Assembly: GCA_012523305.1 (NCBI GenBank)
Contig: JAAYIV010000146.1
Coordinates: forward strand, 1 to 50,548
Length of the DNA stretch: 50,548 nt
Origin: Spirochaetales bacterium
GTDB taxonomy: Bacteria; Spirochaetota; Spirochaetia; Sphaerochaetales; Sphaerochaetaceae
Direction of reading: 5' to 3'
Under the pieces are notes generated by a model that was not told where the DNA came from, ran no database searches, and saw only the letters and a list, made by a program, of their open reading frames with translations. The translations under genes and the position numbers were made by a program. Below are positions 15,297-23,624 of the stretch, one piece after another. How positions within the stretch are numbered: position 1 is the first letter of the stretch; every line of letters starts with the position of its first letter.

Positions 15297-16112
15297 TCAG
15301 GTAACATAGCTATGGAGACTCGGAAGAAGAATGTTTACACCGATGAAGGTGAAAATTACAGAAGCGAATCCGATAATTGCAAACCAAGCAGCTGGTTTAC
15401 CTCTCCAGTTGCGTCTCAATCTTAGGTGAAGATATATGGCATAGATAATCCAGGTAATCAATGACCATGTCTCTTTCGGATCCCAAGCCCAATAACGTGA
15501 CCAAGCTTTTTGTGCCCATATCGCACCGGAAATAATTACGACCGTCAGCATCAGTTGACCAAAGACGATTACACGATAAGCGAGCATGTCACTGATTTCT
15601 CGATCCTTAAGTATGCTCTTCCCTTCTGGTCTTTTCACATCTATCAAATAAATGACTGCCAATGCACAAGATAACGCAAAGGATCCATACGATAATATGG
15701 CTGTCCCGACATGGAATGTGAGCCAATAACTTTGTAATGCGGGCATCAATGGTTTGATTGTCTTGGATTGCATCGCAGCGTACCCCATTACCAAAATTGC
15801 CAACGGGAGCACAAACGACCCGATTGCTGCAAATTTATAGATCACATACAACACGATAAAACATACAATGATTCCCCATGCGAAGCTCATGGCGAATTCA
15901 TATTGGTTACTTAGTGGTAAACGACCTGCTCCGATGGTACGAAACACCATTGCAATCGTATGGAATAATACACCCGCACTGGTGGCGATGAGAGCGGGCT
16001 TCTCAACTTTCTTACTCAACTTAGAGAGAAAAAGGAGAAACAAAATGGCAGCAACCACATAAAGACCGAATGCGATAGTAAATGTAAAATTCTCAAAATA
16101 TGCCAAATCCAT
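15297..16112 (-). CDS. ccsA: Cytochrome c maturation protein CcsA/ResC (System II)
   Basis: A 271-aa polytopic membrane protein (about 8 membrane helices) that, with Ccs1/ResB, moves haem outward and attaches it to CxxCH motifs in apocytochromes. The hallmark WWD motif is present (WSRYWAWDPKETWSL, about residue 210), together with conserved haem-ligand histidines in helices around residues 45-60, 140 and 260. Its ATG (16112) follows the resB stop by 2 bases. It is the last gene of the cytochrome operon, next to a convergent ATPase gene. Confidence 0.93.
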   Translation of the reverse strand: MDLAYFENFTFTIAFGLYVVAAILFLLFLSKLSKKVEKPALIATSAGVLFHTIAMVFRTIGAGRLPLSNQYEFAMSFAWGIIVCFIVLYVIYKFAAIGSFVLPLAILVMGYAAMQSKTIKPLMPALQSYWLTFHVGTAILSYGSFALSCALAVIYLIDVKRPEGKSILKDREISDMLAYRVIVFGQLMLTVVIISGAIWAQKAWSRYWAWDPKETWSLITWIIYAIYLHLRLRRNWRGKPAAWFAIIGFASVIFTFIGVNILLPSLHSYVT

Positions 16113-16114
16113 GA

Positions 16115-17377
16115 TTATTCCTTCTTATCATCAGCAATGTTGCCTTGAAGGCGTCTTGCGACCGATTGGGCAAACACCCAATTATTCTTCCTGCTGTACG
16201 TTATCAACACTCCATCGGTGAAACTGACAAACCGGGGATAGAGATAGAAACTGACGACCATTCCCAGTACTATGAAGATGAATCCCAGTGAAACCACGAC
16301 AAAACTTGGATCCGTCCTAAATAGAAGCCCCGTATATGTTTGAGAATGGACGAAACTAATATCATATTGACCGTATGGAATCACCTCCTGAGGGCCTACG
16401 ATGTAGGATCCTATCGGATTGCCAAATTCATATAAAATCACGGCATAGTGAGGATTGATTTCTCGCTCTGAAAGATTGATTGGCTGCTGGTCGTTTCCTA
16501 TCGCCAACTCAGGGAAATATTTGAATAAATAAATCGTGAGATGTGAATCTTGATGAAAGTAGTTTGAATTGTTTCTAAGGTACTGTTCATCTACGATCTC
16601 TTTCGTTTCCCTATCAGTGATCGTGAGATAACTGATCCATCCATAACTTGCTTGATAAAACTTGACTCCTTTATGTGATACCGGATTATTAACCCACATT
16701 GTTCTTTTCAGCTCCGTCTTGTCTTCATCGATAATGGTGATATCGCTGACATATTGAGAGATGCTTCCATTCTCATCAAATTCGATGTTGAAATCATCAA
16801 GGCGAAGTACAAATTGTTTCTCGTCGAACGAAACTTCATTTCCCGGAAGAAGATTCACAGAAGCTTCTTGGGCTGTCATGGCGCCGATAACACCCCCGAG
16901 AATCATAATCAGTATACCGATATGAGTGATAGCAGCCCCGAGGACTCCCCATCGATATTTACTCGCCGTAAATCCTATATCTTGTTGTTCGATCTGATAG
17001 TGGCGTTTTTGAAAATAGGCACGAGCATCATCCAAAGGTATTTGTTCGATGCGATGCCCATGCGTAGCTGTCGCTGGAGAAAATGTTTTTTTCGATTGTG
17101 CGAACTGTCCGCGAAGAGATGTAATGGTACAGGTGATCAGATTAATTGAAAATAGGATCGTAAGAACGATGAAAATCGCAGACGCATACACATCATCGAA
17201 AGACATTGCTATTAAAAACTTGCCGACATCTTTATATCTCTGAGTGTAATACGCTGCATCCATGTGCTGAGGGATAAGTGTTCCGATAATGATATATAGA
17301 GCAATCAGGATCAATAAAACAATGGCTACACCCAAGGAAGAGACTATTGAATATATTTTTTTAACAATTCTGTTCAT
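16115..17377 (-). CDS. resB: Cytochrome c maturation protein Ccs1/ResB (System II)
   Basis: A 420-aa membrane protein of the ResB/Ccs1 family that forms the haem handling and ligation complex with CcsA. Three N-terminal membrane helices (about residues 10-30, 60-85, 145-170) flank short loops. A large periplasmic domain (about 175-355) contains YQASYGW, and a fourth helix lies near residue 365. The early IIGTLIPQ motif is a ResB signature. It begins 79 bases after the multihaem cytochrome and ends 2 bases before ccsA. Because the System II pair lies directly downstream of an 11-haem cytochrome, that protein is probably its main client. Confidence 0.92.
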   Translation of the reverse strand: MNRIVKKIYSIVSSLGVAIVLLILIALYIIIGTLIPQHMDAAYYTQRYKDVGKFLIAMSFDDVYASAIFIVLTILFSINLITCTITSLRGQFAQSKKTFSPATATHGHRIEQIPLDDARAYFQKRHYQIEQQDIGFTASKYRWGVLGAAITHIGILIMILGGVIGAMTAQEASVNLLPGNEVSFDEKQFVLRLDDFNIEFDENGSISQYVSDITIIDEDKTELKRTMWVNNPVSHKGVKFYQASYGWISYLTITDRETKEIVDEQYLRNNSNYFHQDSHLTIYLFKYFPELAIGNDQQPINLSEREINPHYAVILYEFGNPIGSYIVGPQEVIPYGQYDISFVHSQTYTGLLFRTDPSFVVVSLGFIFIVLGMVVSFYLYPRFVSFTDGVLITYSRKNNWVFAQSVARRLQGNIADDKKE

Positions 17378-17397
17378 GTAGGTCCTTTATATACAAA

Positions 17398-17431
17398 GAA
17401 TGAACCGGAGTACAATAGCTCCGGTTCATTC
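17398..17431 (-). terminator. Hairpin between the cytochrome and resB genes
   Basis: A perfect 13-bp stem (GAATGAACCGGAG / CTCCGGTTCATTC) with an 8-base loop lies after the cytochrome stop codon, followed on the minus strand by TTTGTATAT. The short T-run makes it a leaky terminator or processing hairpin that could lower resB/ccsA expression relative to the cytochrome. Confidence 0.75.
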
Positions 17432-17455
17432 TTATGGTAATTCCGGCTACGCATA

Positions 17456-18823
17456 TCAGTTGTTAAGGGCTGGCGGGGCTCCCGTAACAACAAGACTGGT
17501 AGCTTTGCTATCTGTCGGTCTCAAATCTGACTCTCGTAAGAATATCCTGTCATTGCCATGGCACGAATCACAGCTTTCGTTCTGGAATGTGGACTTTTGG
17601 ATATTATGAGATGGAGAGTACTTCCAGTTGGAACTTTCATCGAAGTTAACCAATAAATCTTCTCCCGCTTCAATGAATGATTCCGCAGTCGTCGGGATAT
17701 GGCGTAATGCCACATATGTATACGGACGCTCTTCAGTCGGATTCGGATTGAGTCCGATTCTAAAGAGGACTCTCATTTCCGAGCTACTTGAAAGGCTCTG
17801 CCGATCTTCAGCGATGGAGACGTGGCATTCGAAACAGTTTTGGTTTGCACTAGCATGACATACTTGGCAAGAAAGATTAGTCCCATGGACATTGTGGGCT
17901 ACAATCTCTGATTTCCCGGGAACAGCATTTTCATGGCAATCGAGGCAACTTGGAAGTACGGGTTTATCCCACATCGATGCATATGCTTCTCCGGTACCAT
18001 GGAAATTGTCGACCGTATGGCAATCGACACAAGTCATTCCTGCATCAAAGTGCACGTCGGTCGCATATCCTACCGTTCCCATGAATTCACCGGCATTACG
18101 CGCACCGTGACAGCCATAACATGTCTGATCCATCGGAGGAGTACTAAAGAACTCATGCTTGTTGATCAGTCCCCCCGCATAATTGCTTGGTCTGCTCACA
18201 TGGCATTCTCCACATGAAGCATGGCAATTCATACAGTTAAGGTTCCACACCTCGCCAAGACCCTCATGGGCGTCAGCCAGTGCGTCTTTATCTCCGGCAA
18301 AATTAATCAATGAATTTGAAAACCCGCGGACAGTATAGTGTAACGAATTCTCATACGTCTCTGTGACTTCAGAATGGCATTTTGAACAAATACCATTCGT
18401 ATCAGCAGAAGGCGATGGATTCACACCGATATGTGCTTCTGTATAAATTTCACTGTTAGGTCCGCCATGGCAGGTAACACAGCCGAGCTGGCCGTGGGCG
18501 GTCTCGAGAAATTCAAAAGATACTTGATATTTTTCTAGCGCCGAAAACTCCGGCGCAGACGGGCCTCACCCACCTTCCCCACCATGACTTGATGCGACAG
18601 GTTCGGAAGCAAGCTTGGTGATCGGGTGAGTTTTTGTGTGACAAGCAATACACTTATCACTCGGTTGGCTTTCGATTTCAACAGGGCTGGTAAATCTGGC
18701 TGTTACCGCCATGGTCTGGCTTGGTTCACTTTTTTTTGAACAGCCACTAAACATGAAGGCAACAATCAGTGCCAAGCCCCAAAAAAGCCAATACGATGCA
18801 GTTCTTTTCTCTTTGTTGCTCAT
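17456..18823 (-). CDS. Selenocysteine-containing 11-haem c-type cytochrome lipoprotein (TGA read as Sec86)
   Basis: Read through one in-frame TGA (18566-18568), the frame encodes 455 residues. An N-terminal membrane segment ends in the lipobox FSGC (Cys28), so the protein is exported and lipidated. Eleven CxxCH haem sites are visible: CIACH58, then after the TGA CVTCH115, CSKCH, CMNCH, CGECH, CYGCH, CVDCH, CLDCH, CQVCH, CFECH and CDSCH. The TGA lies in a glycine-rich loop (HGGEGG-U-GPSAPEF) between haems 1 and 2. The next usable start after it is a GTG at 18424; using it would lose haem 2, lack a Shine-Dalgarno and leave nine haem sites without a signal peptide, so two separate genes are unlikely. 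The start ATG at 18823 has GTGGGGA upstream and its own promoter. selB lies just upstream, the haem-ligation genes just downstream. Probable role: periplasmic or surface electron transfer or reductase; the substrate is unknown. Confidence 0.82.
18538..18556 (-). promoter_or_regulatory. Candidate bacterial SECIS hairpin
   Basis: On the minus strand, 9 bases after the TGA, GCGCCG pairs perfectly with CGGCGC around the loop GAGTTTT. The loop's first G is at +16 from the UGA. Bacterial SECIS elements are short hairpins within coding sequence just downstream of UGA with a G in the first loop positions, which this meets. SelB, the protein that binds such hairpins, is encoded about 100 bases upstream. 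Confidence 0.75.
18566..18568 (-). other. In-frame TGA, putative selenocysteine codon
   Basis: TGA at codon 86 of the cytochrome frame. The coding frame is open for 85 codons before it and 369 after it, with a haem motif on each side. A sequencing error or a true nonsense mutation are the alternatives. Confidence 0.8.
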
Positions 18824-18860
18824 AAATTCCCCACAAACCTAATAAATGTATCGTTACGCT

Positions 18861-18888
18861 ATTATAGCATTTCATATCGATAAGGCAA
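18861..18888 (-). promoter_or_regulatory. Promoter of the selenocytochrome gene
   Basis: On the minus strand a perfect TATAAT (18861-18866) lies 16 bases from TTGCCT (18883-18888), 37 bases before the ATG. It lets the cytochrome be transcribed separately from selB. Confidence 0.6.
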
Positions 18889-18926
18889 TCTCCATTTGGA
18901 AAAATCTCTTTCTTAAGCTATATCAT

Positions 18927-20723
18927 TCATAATATTTTCCTCATATCGCCAATTCTAGCGACAAGTTTCTGCTCTTCCATCTTATTCAACAAAGGAATCA
19001 TGTATTTCCTCGAGAGATTGACATGTTGTTTCGCATCCGCAATCGAAAACAGATCTCCTTTCTTCTTTTGCCCAATGATCTTTTTAACAATCGTTACATA
19101 TATCTCGGATGAGTAGACGAACATTTCTCCGATGATAATGGCTTGTTCGTCACGTAATAACTCACCAAGTGTTTGTTTTTCTTCCCTGCTCAGCAGTTTG
19201 ATCTCATAACCGAACATTCCTTTCGCGGTTATTTTCCCTAATAATGTCTCAGCCTGAGGAGAAATGGTGATCTTCACTTTACCGACCGGGCACAGCAACG
19301 AATTCTTTCTTCGTATGAGTTCCTTGGTAAGCAATTGGCGAATGATCACATCACTGACCGCATCGTCAATCGATAATTGTTTTTTAAGATCAACTAAGGG
19401 GATTCTTCCTGAAGTAGTAACCATGTCGATTATTTGTTTGGAAATCACCGTATGCAGTGATCGTTTGATGAGCCATGTGCCAAAGGCATCGTATCGTTCA
19501 CCACACAGCACGATAGACTCTTCTAGTTTCCGGTTGCAATTGAAAAATCCATGAATGACAAGAGCTAGATATCCCTGTTCATCAATCTCATCAAGAATAT
19601 TCTCTCTTTCGTAAATAAGTCGTGCTATCTTTTTATACATACTTGGAGTTCCGGAAACGCTCCAGACGATTGTTCCGAATGCAAGCACGGTACTTTTTCC
19701 AGGTTGAAAGACAATTAGCCGCTGCTTCCAAAACCAGATGCCTTCATCCTGTGTAACCAGTCTCGCAACGACAGTCTTCCGATTTATCTTATCCGATCCA
19801 TCAGATATGAAATGCAGTTGGCAAAGTGAATGACGGGTCCCATAAGCAATCCCAACTTCTTGATGATTTCTAATATGTAACGATTCTGTTTCTTTTGGAG
19901 GCCGAACAAGCACTAAAATCTCTTTCGAAACTTGCAAAAGAGACGGTGATTGAGTGATACACATCCCTTTGCTTACCCGATCGTTTTTCACTGACTGGAT
20001 ATTCAGTGCCGTGCGACTATTGGGAAAAGCAGTGGTTACTTGTTTGTCGAACTGCTGGATTGATCTGATTTTGATAATTTCATTACCGGGAAGCAACGTC
20101 GCCTCATCCCCTTCATGTATCGATTGGCCCATCAGCGTACCGGTGGCAATCACTCCTGTTCCGGATAGGGTAAACGTCCTGTCGATATACATGCAGGACG
20201 GGAAGTTTCTCTCATCGGCTTTTTTTACCAACATGCTGATTTTAGATGTCAGTTCGATCAAACCGATATTTTTATGGCAACTAATTTTAATTGAATCGCA
20301 TGGTTTGTTAAAAATCTGGCTACAGCGGTATAAGGCCTGCTGTTCAACTTCATGTGACCGTTCACAACTCACCAGATCAATCTTGGTGATGACCAGTAAG
20401 ACCTCGGATGTTCCCATACCTTTCAATATCAATGCATGATCCTCGGTTTGAGCCATCCATCCGTCATCTGCCGCAACAAGCAAAAGAGCACAGTTCAACG
20501 CCCATGCACCGCTGGCCATGTTTTTAATGAAACGCTCATGTCCCGGAACATCAATGATTCCGATCTGCATGCCATCGGAACCATAAAAAGAAGCAAATCC
20601 GAGATCGATGGTCAATCCGCGCCGTTTTTCTTCTTTGAGATTATCGGTGTCCTTACCGGTCAGAAATTTTACTAACGTAGTCTTTCCGTGGTCTACATGA
20701 CCTGCTGTTCCAATCAGATACAC
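18927..20723 (-). CDS. selB: Selenocysteine-specific elongation factor SelB
   Basis: A 598-aa GTPase that delivers Sec-tRNA to UGA codons marked by a SECIS hairpin. The N-terminal G domain has GTAGHVDHGKTTLV (G1), DVPGHERFIKNM (G3) and ITKIDLV (G4); beta-barrel domains follow, with RTFTLSGTGVIATGTLMGQ. The C-terminal part (about residues 400-598) consists of winged helices that bind the SECIS RNA. It starts with GTG at 20723, overlapping the selA stop by 10 bases, so selA and selB are translationally coupled. Length is close to that of other bacterial SelB proteins. The cytochrome gene directly downstream is the only Sec protein candidate I found in the window. Confidence 0.96.
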   Translation of the reverse strand: MYLIGTAGHVDHGKTTLVKFLTGKDTDNLKEEKRRGLTIDLGFASFYGSDGMQIGIIDVPGHERFIKNMASGAWALNCALLLVAADDGWMAQTEDHALILKGMGTSEVLLVITKIDLVSCERSHEVEQQALYRCSQIFNKPCDSIKISCHKNIGLIELTSKISMLVKKADERNFPSCMYIDRTFTLSGTGVIATGTLMGQSIHEGDEATLLPGNEIIKIRSIQQFDKQVTTAFPNSRTALNIQSVKNDRVSKGMCITQSPSLLQVSKEILVLVRPPKETESLHIRNHQEVGIAYGTRHSLCQLHFISDGSDKINRKTVVARLVTQDEGIWFWKQRLIVFQPGKSTVLAFGTIVWSVSGTPSMYKKIARLIYERENILDEIDEQGYLALVIHGFFNCNRKLEESIVLCGERYDAFGTWLIKRSLHTVISKQIIDMVTTSGRIPLVDLKKQLSIDDAVSDVIIRQLLTKELIRRKNSLLCPVGKVKITISPQAETLLGKITAKGMFGYEIKLLSREEKQTLGELLRDEQAIIIGEMFVYSSEIYVTIVKKIIGQKKKGDLFSIADAKQHVNLSRKYMIPLLNKMEEQKLVARIGDMRKIL

Positions 20724-22036
20724 GCAAGATCCTTCAATACATCGCGAATAGCCGATGCAATAATGGTAATCTCATCATCGAACACCGCAGCCAAATGCAG
20801 ATGCACTTTTGAATCAATGATAATCGCTATAATCGGAATTGGCCTGTCACGCAACATCTTTAGGATTTGATGTGGATTATGGAGGCTGTCAATTTTAATC
20901 GCAACGCTAGGGTACTCGCCCTCAGGGTCACTACCTCCTCCAAAAGCCATCGGAGATTCGACAAGCGCCAGTTGTTCGTTGCCGGTAATCGAGATGATAC
21001 TATTTCCCATCTCTCGCAGTTCGTTCATGGAGCGTTTGAAAAAAGACCCGGGAACACTTGGGATAGTATTTAATCTATCGATTAAGGTGTGTTCGAATAT
21101 GCTGAGAACTGTTTTGCCAGGTCTGAGTACTCGATACAACGGATGTTTAGCCAACTGTTTGACAATCTTTGTCTTACCACATATGCAGCCGATTTGTACC
21201 GAACCAATCAGCTTATCTCCAGAAAATGTAATGATATCGGCACCTTGTTTGAACAATGTCCTCGTACTGATCTCACCCGGAACCGAGTTGTCGTGAGCTC
21301 CGGATCCCTGATCAACAGCCAATATCGCTCGTCTTCCGATTGCCTTGGCCAGTTCGTCTACTGATGCTTCATTAGTAAAGCCATGGATGCTGAAATTACT
21401 TCTGTGAACCTTAAGTACCATTGCAGTGTTCTCGTCCAATGCATTCACATAATCCGAGACCGTAGTTATATTGGTTGTCCCGACTTCCACCAACTCAGCT
21501 CCAGATTGTTGCATTATTTCATGAATTCTGAAGCCACCGCCGATTTGGACCAATTCGCCACGACTGACCAACACACGTTTTCCTTTCGCGACTGCGGCGA
21601 GTAACAAGAAAAGAGCAGCGGCATTGTTATTGACGACGATCGCATCTTCCGATCCTGTCATGTGATGAAGCAAATCCGATGAAATATCGGCTCGATTACC
21701 ACGTTTACCAGTGGAAAGGTTAAACTCCAGATTGGTGTACCGGCAATTTGCTTCTTTAACTGCATCCCACACCGATTCAGAAAGCGGTGATCGACCTAGG
21801 TTGGTATGGATAAGTATGCCGCTGCAGTTTACCACCCGTATAGGATGCATTCGTTCACTCGATTGGCAAACTTGTGCCACTTGATCAATAATTGCCTGAA
21901 TGCCATCGATGCTTTGGCCGTGCAATATCATCCCACGAATCTCGTGTAGCACTGAACGCACAACATCGACAACTCTCGGTCTCCCGAGAATTCTGATCCA
22001 ATGAGAAAGTTGAGAATCGGAAACTATTGTTTCCAC
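20714..22036 (-). CDS. selA: L-seryl-tRNA(Sec) selenium transferase SelA
   Basis: A PLP enzyme that converts seryl-tRNA(Sec) to selenocysteinyl-tRNA(Sec) using selenophosphate. Signatures include GRPRVVDVVRSVL, VNCSGILIHTNLGRSPL, YTNLEFNLSTGKRG, AIVVNNNAAALFL, KVHRSNFSIHGFT, LAVDQGSGAHD and ITFSGDKLIGSVQIG (PLP lysine in SGDKL). The only standard start near the expected end is the GTG at 22036, with no Shine-Dalgarno. The in-frame codons just upstream (LSELPQ before the GTG) resemble the usual SelA N-terminus, yet no ATG, GTG or TTG precedes them back into selC. The true start is therefore unsettled. It lies 34 bases after selC. Confidence 0.94.
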   Translation of the reverse strand: METIVSDSQLSHWIRILGRPRVVDVVRSVLHEIRGMILHGQSIDGIQAIIDQVAQVCQSSERMHPIRVVNCSGILIHTNLGRSPLSESVWDAVKEANCRYTNLEFNLSTGKRGNRADISSDLLHHMTGSEDAIVVNNNAAALFLLLAAVAKGKRVLVSRGELVQIGGGFRIHEIMQQSGAELVEVGTTNITTVSDYVNALDENTAMVLKVHRSNFSIHGFTNEASVDELAKAIGRRAILAVDQGSGAHDNSVPGEISTRTLFKQGADIITFSGDKLIGSVQIGCICGKTKIVKQLAKHPLYRVLRPGKTVLSIFEHTLIDRLNTIPSVPGSFFKRSMNELREMGNSIISITGNEQLALVESPMAFGGGSDPEGEYPSVAIKIDSLHNPHQILKMLRDRPIPIIAIIIDSKVHLHLAAVFDDEITIIASAIRDVLKDLACI

Positions 22037-22070
22037 TTGAGGTAATTCAGATAATTTATCCTTGTGCTTA

Positions 22071-22159
22071 CGGAAGAGGCAGGAATCGAACCTACCACTG
22101 CAATAGTTGCAGCCAACGGTTTTGAAGACCGCGGGAGCCTCCAGACCCCATCAACTTCC
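22071..22159 (-). tRNA. selC: tRNA-Sec (anticodon UCA)
   Basis: An 89-base tRNA on the minus strand ending in discriminator G, without an encoded CCA. Anticodon stem CGGT/ACCG encloses CTTCAAA, giving anticodon TCA. Other features are a six-pair D stem with a short TGGA loop, a long variable arm (CTGCAA/TTGCAG) and a T loop TTCGATT. These are specific to tRNA-Sec. The acceptor stem begins GGAAGTTG and ends CCTCTTCC: the outer five pairs are good, positions 6 and 7 do not pair, and position 8 pairs. It lies 49 bases after the rhodanese gene and just before selA. Confidence 0.93.
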
Positions 22160-22208
22160 AATTACAGGGAAGAATGTGACAAACACAATCTCCCCTGATT
22201 CATTAAAT

Positions 22209-23192
22209 TTATTTTGTGACAACTGGGAGATTTGCATTGATCCATCCAGCGGTCATGCCGGATGAGAGAGAATATGCATCATAACCCAATGTTCTGAGAA
22301 TCCCGACAGTCTGGCCTGAAGTCTGGCCGGAGAAACAAGCGATAACGATCTTGTCACTCTTGGACAATGAATCAAGCTGACCGCCAAATTGTGCCCAAGG
22401 AACGAAAACTGCGCCGGCGATATGACCAGCATCAAATGCTTCCTGTGAACGGATATCAAAGACCTTGAAGGCTTTTGGATTTACATCAAGTTGGTCGCTA
22501 ACATCCTGACCTTTGATGATTTTGTTACCATCGGTACCGACTTTCACGAAATTTGCCTTTGCGGCTTCCCATAGCACTTCCTGCTCTGCATCCTTAGGAG
22601 AAGAAACATTAGCTCGGGCTGACAATTCATTTGCTCCGGTTCCGGTGACTGGCAGCTCAGCAGCTTTCCAACCATTATTCATACCACCCTGAAGAGATTT
22701 AACATTGGTAAAACCAGCAAAGCGAAGAGTCGCCACAGCTTGTCCAGCGGTTTGTCCTGAGTAACATGCAACCACGACCTGCCTATTTTGGGGAATCTTT
22801 TCCATCACATCACCAAGTTTTGCCCAATCGCTGTGGAATGCACCTTCGATATGGCCAGCTTCAAAATCCGCACCGCTACGAATATCTACGATAAACACTG
22901 CCTGTGGATTATCATCCAGCATGGTCTTGAGATCTTTCGCAGAAATCATGTTGTTGCTCTGTGCAATTTGAGCGAAGAAATCTTTTGCTGCTGTAACAAG
23001 AACCGCATCCTTGTCAATTGCCGGTGCTGCGGGTTGGGTTACTGCTGGTTGAACGGCAGGGGCTACGGTTGTTGTGGTGGGTGCCGGGGCAGCAGCCTGA
23101 GTTGGGGCTTCAGCCTTTTTGCCACATCCGGTCAACCCGATTACTACTACAAGTACAAGGACAATCGCAAAAGCCCAGAATCTTTTTTTCAT
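22209..23192 (-). CDS. Tandem rhodanese-domain lipoprotein
   Basis: A 327-aa exported lipoprotein (lipobox LTGC near residue 23), an Ala/Pro/Thr linker (to about residue 60), then two rhodanese domains. Each has a DIRS-x-x-x-F-x-x-GHI-x-GA motif and an active-site Cys loop: CYSGQT in domain 1, CFSGQT in domain 2, so both should be able to carry a persulfide (or perselenide). The ATG at 23192 is chosen because AGGAG ends 6 bases upstream; the ATG at 23198 abuts it. It is the first gene of the selC-selA-selB-cytochrome block on the same strand. A periplasmic sulfur or selenium relay to the cytochrome is possible but unproven. Confidence 0.88.
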   Translation of the reverse strand: MKKRFWAFAIVLVLVVVIGLTGCGKKAEAPTQAAAPAPTTTTVAPAVQPAVTQPAAPAIDKDAVLVTAAKDFFAQIAQSNNMISAKDLKTMLDDNPQAVFIVDIRSGADFEAGHIEGAFHSDWAKLGDVMEKIPQNRQVVVACYSGQTAGQAVATLRFAGFTNVKSLQGGMNNGWKAAELPVTGTGANELSARANVSSPKDAEQEVLWEAAKANFVKVGTDGNKIIKGQDVSDQLDVNPKAFKVFDIRSQEAFDAGHIAGAVFVPWAQFGGQLDSLSKSDKIVIACFSGQTSGQTVGILRTLGYDAYSLSSGMTAGWINANLPVVTK

Positions 23193-23624
23193 ACACATCT
23201 CCTATGAAAATTTATATATCTTATTCCCAAGAAGGGGAATTTCAAAGGATGAAATCCAATATAAAACCATGTGTAAAGATAATGATATATCGATAAACAA
23301 AGTTTATATACAAGAGCATGTTATCATATGGGCCACATAACAGGCAATGCCTTTTATACCGCTCTTAAATGGAACTGGTAGAATTTTCTAACGACCTATA
23401 CGTTTCCAAACAAGCAAGGCGATTGAAGATTTCATGTCGATGCATATGGTGGGGGAGACTTAGGTTGATAGATAATTCCGAGATAATGATACTTGTATCA
23501 ATAAGCGAAAGAAAGTTATGCTAAGGACGGTTGCGATATGGTTTGTACCAAATTTGATTTTAAGATATAACCTAATTACAACCAATGAATTCGAAACAAC
23601 ATTATGGCAATAGGGGGCTGCATC
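23193..23624. other. Divergent intergenic region without a gene
   Basis: The 432-base AT-rich gap between the rhodanese and OYE genes has no ORF with a ribosome-binding site. A small inverted repeat (ATTCCC / GGGAAT) at about 23222-23239 lies ahead of the rhodanese gene and could be an operator. Nothing else was recognised. Confidence 0.6.

Follow-up and report, generated by a model that had tools for sequence, protein, structure and literature searches.

The locus raises two questions: whether two short open frames, in the same frame and parted by a single TGA, form one cytochrome gene in which that codon specifies selenocysteine (Sec), and, if so, what such a protein might do. The window, the whole 50,548-nucleotide stretch analyzed, comes from a Spirochaetales bacterium (Sphaerochaetaceae; contig JAAYIV010000146.1). 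Without recoding, open reading frame listing returns an 85-aa frame (18566–18823) and a 322-aa frame whose first start, a GTG, lies at 18424. Translating TGA as U across the whole interval gives 455 residues and then a closing TGA; U86 is the sole internal stop, and there are 11 CxxCH motifs. The preliminary description had read the two frames through this codon as a single lipoprotein of 455 aa, having 11 CxxCH motifs and Sec as residue 86; translation bears out the junction, and the coordinates, heme count, and residue number it gave were correct (Table 1). The N-terminus is lipoprotein-like (FMFSGC, with VVGC, ALGC, and GTGC in homologues), and the criteria for a multiheme c-type cytochrome are fulfilled by 11 invariant CxxCH motifs, the lipobox, and adjoining ResB–CcsA genes. 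The product is very probably one exported holocytochrome, and export with heme attachment by the neighboring ResB–CcsA System II lyase is strongly implied.

Table 1. Features of the selenocytochrome locus, with coordinates in the window and the evidence for each assignment.
Feature	Coordinates	Strand	Evidence
CcsA (Cytochrom_C_asm; NCBIfam name CcsB)	15297..16112	-	PF01578 E=1.6e-48; TIGR03144 above cut-off
ResB, cytochrome c heme-lyase partner, System II	16115..17377	-	PF05140 E=7e-51
Perfect 15-nt inverted repeat, terminator-like, between cytochrome and resB	17396..17433	-	sequence
Sec-containing 11-heme cytochrome c lipoprotein gene	17456..18823	-	translation, Pfam cytochrome c3/c7 above cut-off, family alignments
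SECIS-like hairpin, stem capped by GUU; GUU 17 nt after UGA	18535..18559	-	folding, family comparison, selD SECIS cap
UGA codon read as Sec, residue 86	18566..18568	-	translation; same site in 27 homologues
Possible extended -10 promoter TTGCCT-16-TATAAT, between selB and cytochrome gene	18861..18888	-	consensus match only
SelB, Sec-specific elongation factor	18927..20723	-	TIGR00475 266 bits, above cut-off
SelA, seryl-tRNA(Sec) selenium transferase	20714..22036	-	TIGR00474 431 bits, above cut-off
selC, tRNA-Sec, anticodon UCA	22070..22160	-	ARAGORN; RF01852, 62.4 bits
Exported tandem-domain rhodanese lipoprotein, two C[YF]SGQT catalytic loops	22209..23198	-	domain search + loop reading

The cytochrome gene is preceded on the same strand by the rhodanese gene, selC, selA, and selB, the last two overlapping, and is followed by resB and ccsA. 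Sites like the possible promoter upstream of the cytochrome are no more numerous in the region than in shuffled sequence. The inverted repeat downstream is possibly a terminator separating expression of the cytochrome from that of resB.

Searches of Spirochaetota genomes and genome contigs recovered 27 full or partial homologues of the cytochrome, from Spirochaetota and one “Tindallia” MAG, with 33–69% identity to the window protein among those in alignment A1. Homologues that ended at the TGA, or had neither Cys nor an in-frame TGA at this position, would have refuted the Sec assignment in the preliminary description; all 27 carry the in-frame TGA, and their frames run on past it with conservation on both sides. 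The Gly85–U86 pair is invariant across the family alignments. No Cys form was found at this site in a wide search of Spirochaetota and a sample of one other class, most phyla not being reached; the contig scan, built on patterns taken from a single protein, would have missed distant or Cys-type members elsewhere. Nor did plasmids and viral contigs yield relatives of the cytochrome. Three clades make up the family: A (Sphaerochaetaceae-like genomes; mainly lipoproteins, with a GGU[GA] motif), B (families f26, f30, and f32, with an EGEGUAG motif), and C (L005 and L015). One sequence at a contig edge (L061) has an extra TAA upstream, near heme 1. The nearest outlier to clade A is the “Tindallia” sequence (L011, QYZZ01000066.1), on a contig labeled Clostridia with even G + C (about 38–42%); ResB–CcsA genes lie near it, and no rhodanese or sel genes do. 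It reflects either horizontal transfer or misbinning, and no second member carrying the selenocytochrome was found among 291 genomes of that MAG's class.

A reading with two separate products, in which the TGA would be a genuine stop, an error of sequencing, or a pseudogene lesion, agrees with the splitting of the gene by automatic ORF calling, yet is left with virtually no room by the same TGA in 27 homologues from independent assemblies, the conservation of one frame on both sides, the synonymous constraint past the UGA described below, and the adjacent sel genes. General recoding of TGA was also rejected, because the gene and several homologues terminate in TGA and contain only a single internal one.

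A GU[UC]-capped hairpin was found in 25 of 26 sequences, with the GU[UC] 17–20 nt past the UGA; that of L011 is only weak. Clades A, B, and C have differing stem sequences and the same hairpin shape. For the window gene, a mere 0.1% of synonymous shuffles folded equally strongly. Single-sequence energies in clade B were unexceptional (mostly 12–27% of shuffles were as low), and the codons there are invariant. Among invariant residues of clade A, the codon itself was invariant for 7 of 10 in the 12 codons past the UGA vs. 14 of 206 elsewhere (Fisher p = 3e-6), and in clade B for 5 of 8 vs. 8 of 135 (p = 1e-4). Synonymous change is thus suppressed just at the hairpin region after the UGA. The selD genes of eight related genomes, which have a Sec-UGA of their own, served as a positive control: in them a hairpin of the form GCGCAG-GU[UC]-CUGCG, its cap matching that of the cytochrome hairpins, lies 33 nt downstream. 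Sec-type selD with an AGUA[AS]K motif and a GGU[UC] loop was seen in L038, L042, L044, L081, L082, L087, L035, and L085. Because selC, selA, and selB adjoin the gene, all 27 homologues share the TGA, and the hairpin and the synonymous constraint follow it, the Sec reading is well supported; we regard it as nearly certain, on sequence evidence and in the absence of any selenium measurement, that UGA 86 encodes Sec.

The host genome holds a full Sec set, with selA, selB, and selC in the window and a Cys-type selD (GCGAK) on another contig (C66). SelB was present in all 19 cytochrome-bearing genomes where it was sought or seen adjoining. In the sample from the window's own family it was found in 2/2 genomes with the cytochrome vs. 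0/34 without (p = 0.0016), all 34 of the latter giving EF-Tu-level matches only; SelB is likewise present in another cytochrome-bearing member of this family, the third, which was tested separately. The SelB-like proteins of several genomes with the cytochrome (G361, G351, G380, G294, G017, G363, and G224) fall below the TIGR00475 cut-off, several of them in sel clusters, and this model seems to under-call divergent spirochete SelB. The window genome (G000; 99.9% complete) encodes no PF00384 (molybdopterin oxidoreductase) protein and thus lacks the usual Sec-type formate dehydrogenase. PF14537 finds no further cytochrome of that kind in it, and from these two absences the spirochete may own few or no other multiheme cytochromes. 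Since SelB tracks the cytochrome and no PF00384 protein is encoded, the cytochrome is the sole selenoprotein identified in this genome, other kinds not having been searched for; several relatives have SelD as a second one.

In 21 of the 23 loci that could be assessed, the cytochrome gene has a rhodanese gene as its neighbor or just past the sel genes. None was found near the cytochrome in L011 or in L039, for which a 12.4-kb stretch was examined; L039 has a clade-B selenocytochrome and divergent ResB–CcsA, with selA and selB on another contig of its genome (L089). ResB and CcsA are linked to the cytochrome in 22 of 25 loci. The rhodanese is a tandem protein with CYSGQT/CFSGQT loops in clade A, a single-domain CK[ST]GGR form in clade C, and a thiosulfate/mercaptopyruvate-transferase type (CD[ST]GV) in clade B. 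All 21 neighboring rhodaneses that were read keep the catalytic-loop Cys (CYSGQT and CFSGQT in the window), and most have a visible export signal, a signal peptide or a lipobox being present in those whose N-terminus was read. Different rhodanese subtypes occupy the same slot, whether oriented with the cytochrome gene or divergently from it, which argues for exported sulfur transfer as the property under selection. We consider functional coupling of the cytochrome to the rhodanese likely, without biochemical data, whereas the identification of sulfane sulfur as the substrate is a tentative inference, somewhat more doubtful than not.

A working mechanism can be proposed on this basis. The adjacent selC–selA–selB set would decode UGA 86 as Sec by way of the GU[UC]-capped hairpin downstream, and the protein would be exported and lipid-anchored, with ResB–CcsA attaching its eleven hemes. 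Sec, in the invariant Gly–Sec pair of a Gly-rich loop between hemes 1 and 2, is inferred to be the catalytic nucleophile; the exported rhodanese encoded nearby would pass it sulfane sulfur or, with less likelihood, selenium. The heme chain would then supply or remove electrons, taking zero-valent sulfur to sulfide or the reverse, with neither the direction nor the donor or acceptor established. Taken as a whole, and with no biochemical data, the reading of the protein as a Sec-dependent multiheme oxidoreductase acting on rhodanese-delivered sulfane sulfur, which we favor over the alternatives below, seems to us finely balanced between right and wrong.

The protein could instead be a reductase of selenite, tellurite, or another metal(loid) oxyanion, in parallel to the Geobacter extHIJKLMNOPQS cluster, a proposal we think unlikely and still worth entertaining. 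An exported rhodanese (ExtH) is there similarly paired with a Sec multiheme cytochrome (ExtKL; PMC5877670), some rhodanese neighbors in our family match the ExtH model weakly, and the best weak NCBIfam matches of the cytochrome, far under the cut-off, are ExtM and ExtN. Against this, neither an ExtKL model match nor a porin or ext genes alongside were found in the window, and the selenite effect was shown for ExtI, the role of ExtKL itself being only preliminary (PMC5877670). ExtKL (GSU2937-2936) was reported in 2007 as a stop-codon-containing cytochrome candidate (PMC1914089), and the ext cluster that includes the rhodanese ExtH is linked to selenite/tellurite reduction through ExtI (PMC5877670). 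The two systems share a multiheme c-type cytochrome with predicted Sec and an exported rhodanese in the cluster (PMC5877670; PMC6148476; PMC1914089). They differ in layout, ExtKL having five hemes, the UGA after them, and then a C-terminal part without known similarity (PMC1914089; PMC6148476), whereas the window family has eleven hemes with Sec between the first two. The window protein gave no match to the ExtKL model NF040886 at E ≤ 1, nor did 17 members at E ≤ 0.01. Linked to the window cytochrome, in place of the porin gene extI, extJ, and other ext genes, are sel genes and ResB–CcsA; the six larger genes at 15297–23198 are all assigned to families other than extI/extJ.

A second alternative is that Sec is not a nucleophile and is instead an axial ligand of one heme, the selenolate-ligated c-type heme tuning the potential or forming the active heme; this we consider distinctly unlikely. 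All eleven CxxCH motifs are invariant in the family, and 17 aligned homologues share nine further invariant His residues (110, 131, 162, 223, 258, 275, 310, 313, and 406) for the eleven heme-binding His, so that two hemes lack an obvious conserved distal His. One of these could be the catalytic heme or be Sec-ligated, and the invariant Gly–U pair is sited between hemes 1 and 2. However, the distal ligands could be Met, Lys, or His residues that are not conserved, or be absent at an open catalytic heme, and the Gly-rich loop is variable in length and modeled with very low confidence. The AlphaFold2 models are weak (pLDDT 45 for the first and 66 for the second, with the Sec loop below 50), and a PDB fold search with the cytochrome model gave no significant match; for these reasons no Sec–heme geometry is claimed, and Sec as a heme ligand remains possible but unproven. 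The preliminary description had offered both roles, axial ligand and catalytic residue, as possibilities. Similarly doubtful is a further reading, in which the Sec selenolate naturally ligates a c-type heme axially in an eleven-heme reductase, or a Sec-persulfide forms beside an open heme, and the family could not function with Cys. If true, this would be a new kind of heme–selenium active site, maintained by a gene cluster with Sec machinery of its own.

Very unlikely, in our estimate, is a role mainly in conducting electrons to acceptors outside the cell, Sec guarding against peroxide or over-oxidation. A many-heme lipoprotein would suit it, but conservation of the rhodanese partner and of a Sec for which no Cys form is seen indicates specific chemistry, no genes for an outer-membrane conduit were recognized nearby, and the genome has no other PF14537 cytochrome.

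The sulfane-sulfur reading follows a logic that resembles a known pathway, in which an exported sulfurtransferase feeds a sulfur reductase: in Wolinella, the periplasmic sulfur carrier Sud feeds polysulfide reductase Psr. Psr is a molybdopterin enzyme, whereas the window genome lacks any PF00384 protein. The octaheme sulfite reductase MccA (PDB 4rkm), likewise a multiheme reductase, has eight hemes and is not known to contain Sec; the weak local profile similarity to it (E = 7e-4) spans only about 95 profile positions. Octaheme tetrathionate reductase (OTR, TIGR04315) is a multiheme cytochrome family with an annotated Sec member (PMC13188914), and differs in having eight hemes against eleven; one of 17 family members matched that model weakly (E = 1e-4), the window protein did not, and the cut-off was not met. 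Membership in the ExtKL, OTR, ExtM/N, NrfB, or GSU2203 families was rejected, all NCBIfam scores being under the cut-offs.

ExtKL and a Sec member of the octaheme tetrathionate reductase family appear in a 2026 inventory of prokaryotic selenoproteins, which contains no eleven-heme family (PMC13188914). The preliminary description, which mentioned neither the adjoining selC–selA–selB genes, nor the hairpin past the UGA, nor the rhodanese partner, knew of no such family in spirochetes; its novelty holds in that the proteins are unmatched to the ExtKL and octaheme models, with the addition that Sec is known in other multiheme cytochromes. We class it as a new selenocytochrome family, one that may by analogy work like ExtKL without belonging to it. 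Since 27 genes share the TGA and are linked to Sec machinery and an exported sulfur carrier, the gene probably represents an undescribed selenium-dependent enzyme family.

The finding adds a selenocytochrome family in which, within the range searched, Cys has never been seen replacing Sec, and which stays hidden because gene calling without recoding splits every member in two. It would tie Sec to sulfane-sulfur carriers outside the thiol-fold and molybdenum enzymes. Strict Sec conservation, a self-contained cluster, and the recurrent rhodanese pairing make it noteworthy, and the fact that an exported rhodanese accompanies a Sec multiheme cytochrome both here and, separately, in Geobacter (ExtH/ExtKL) offers a testable chemical hypothesis. 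In the window's own bacterial family, the cytochrome seems to be the reason that the Sec machinery is retained.
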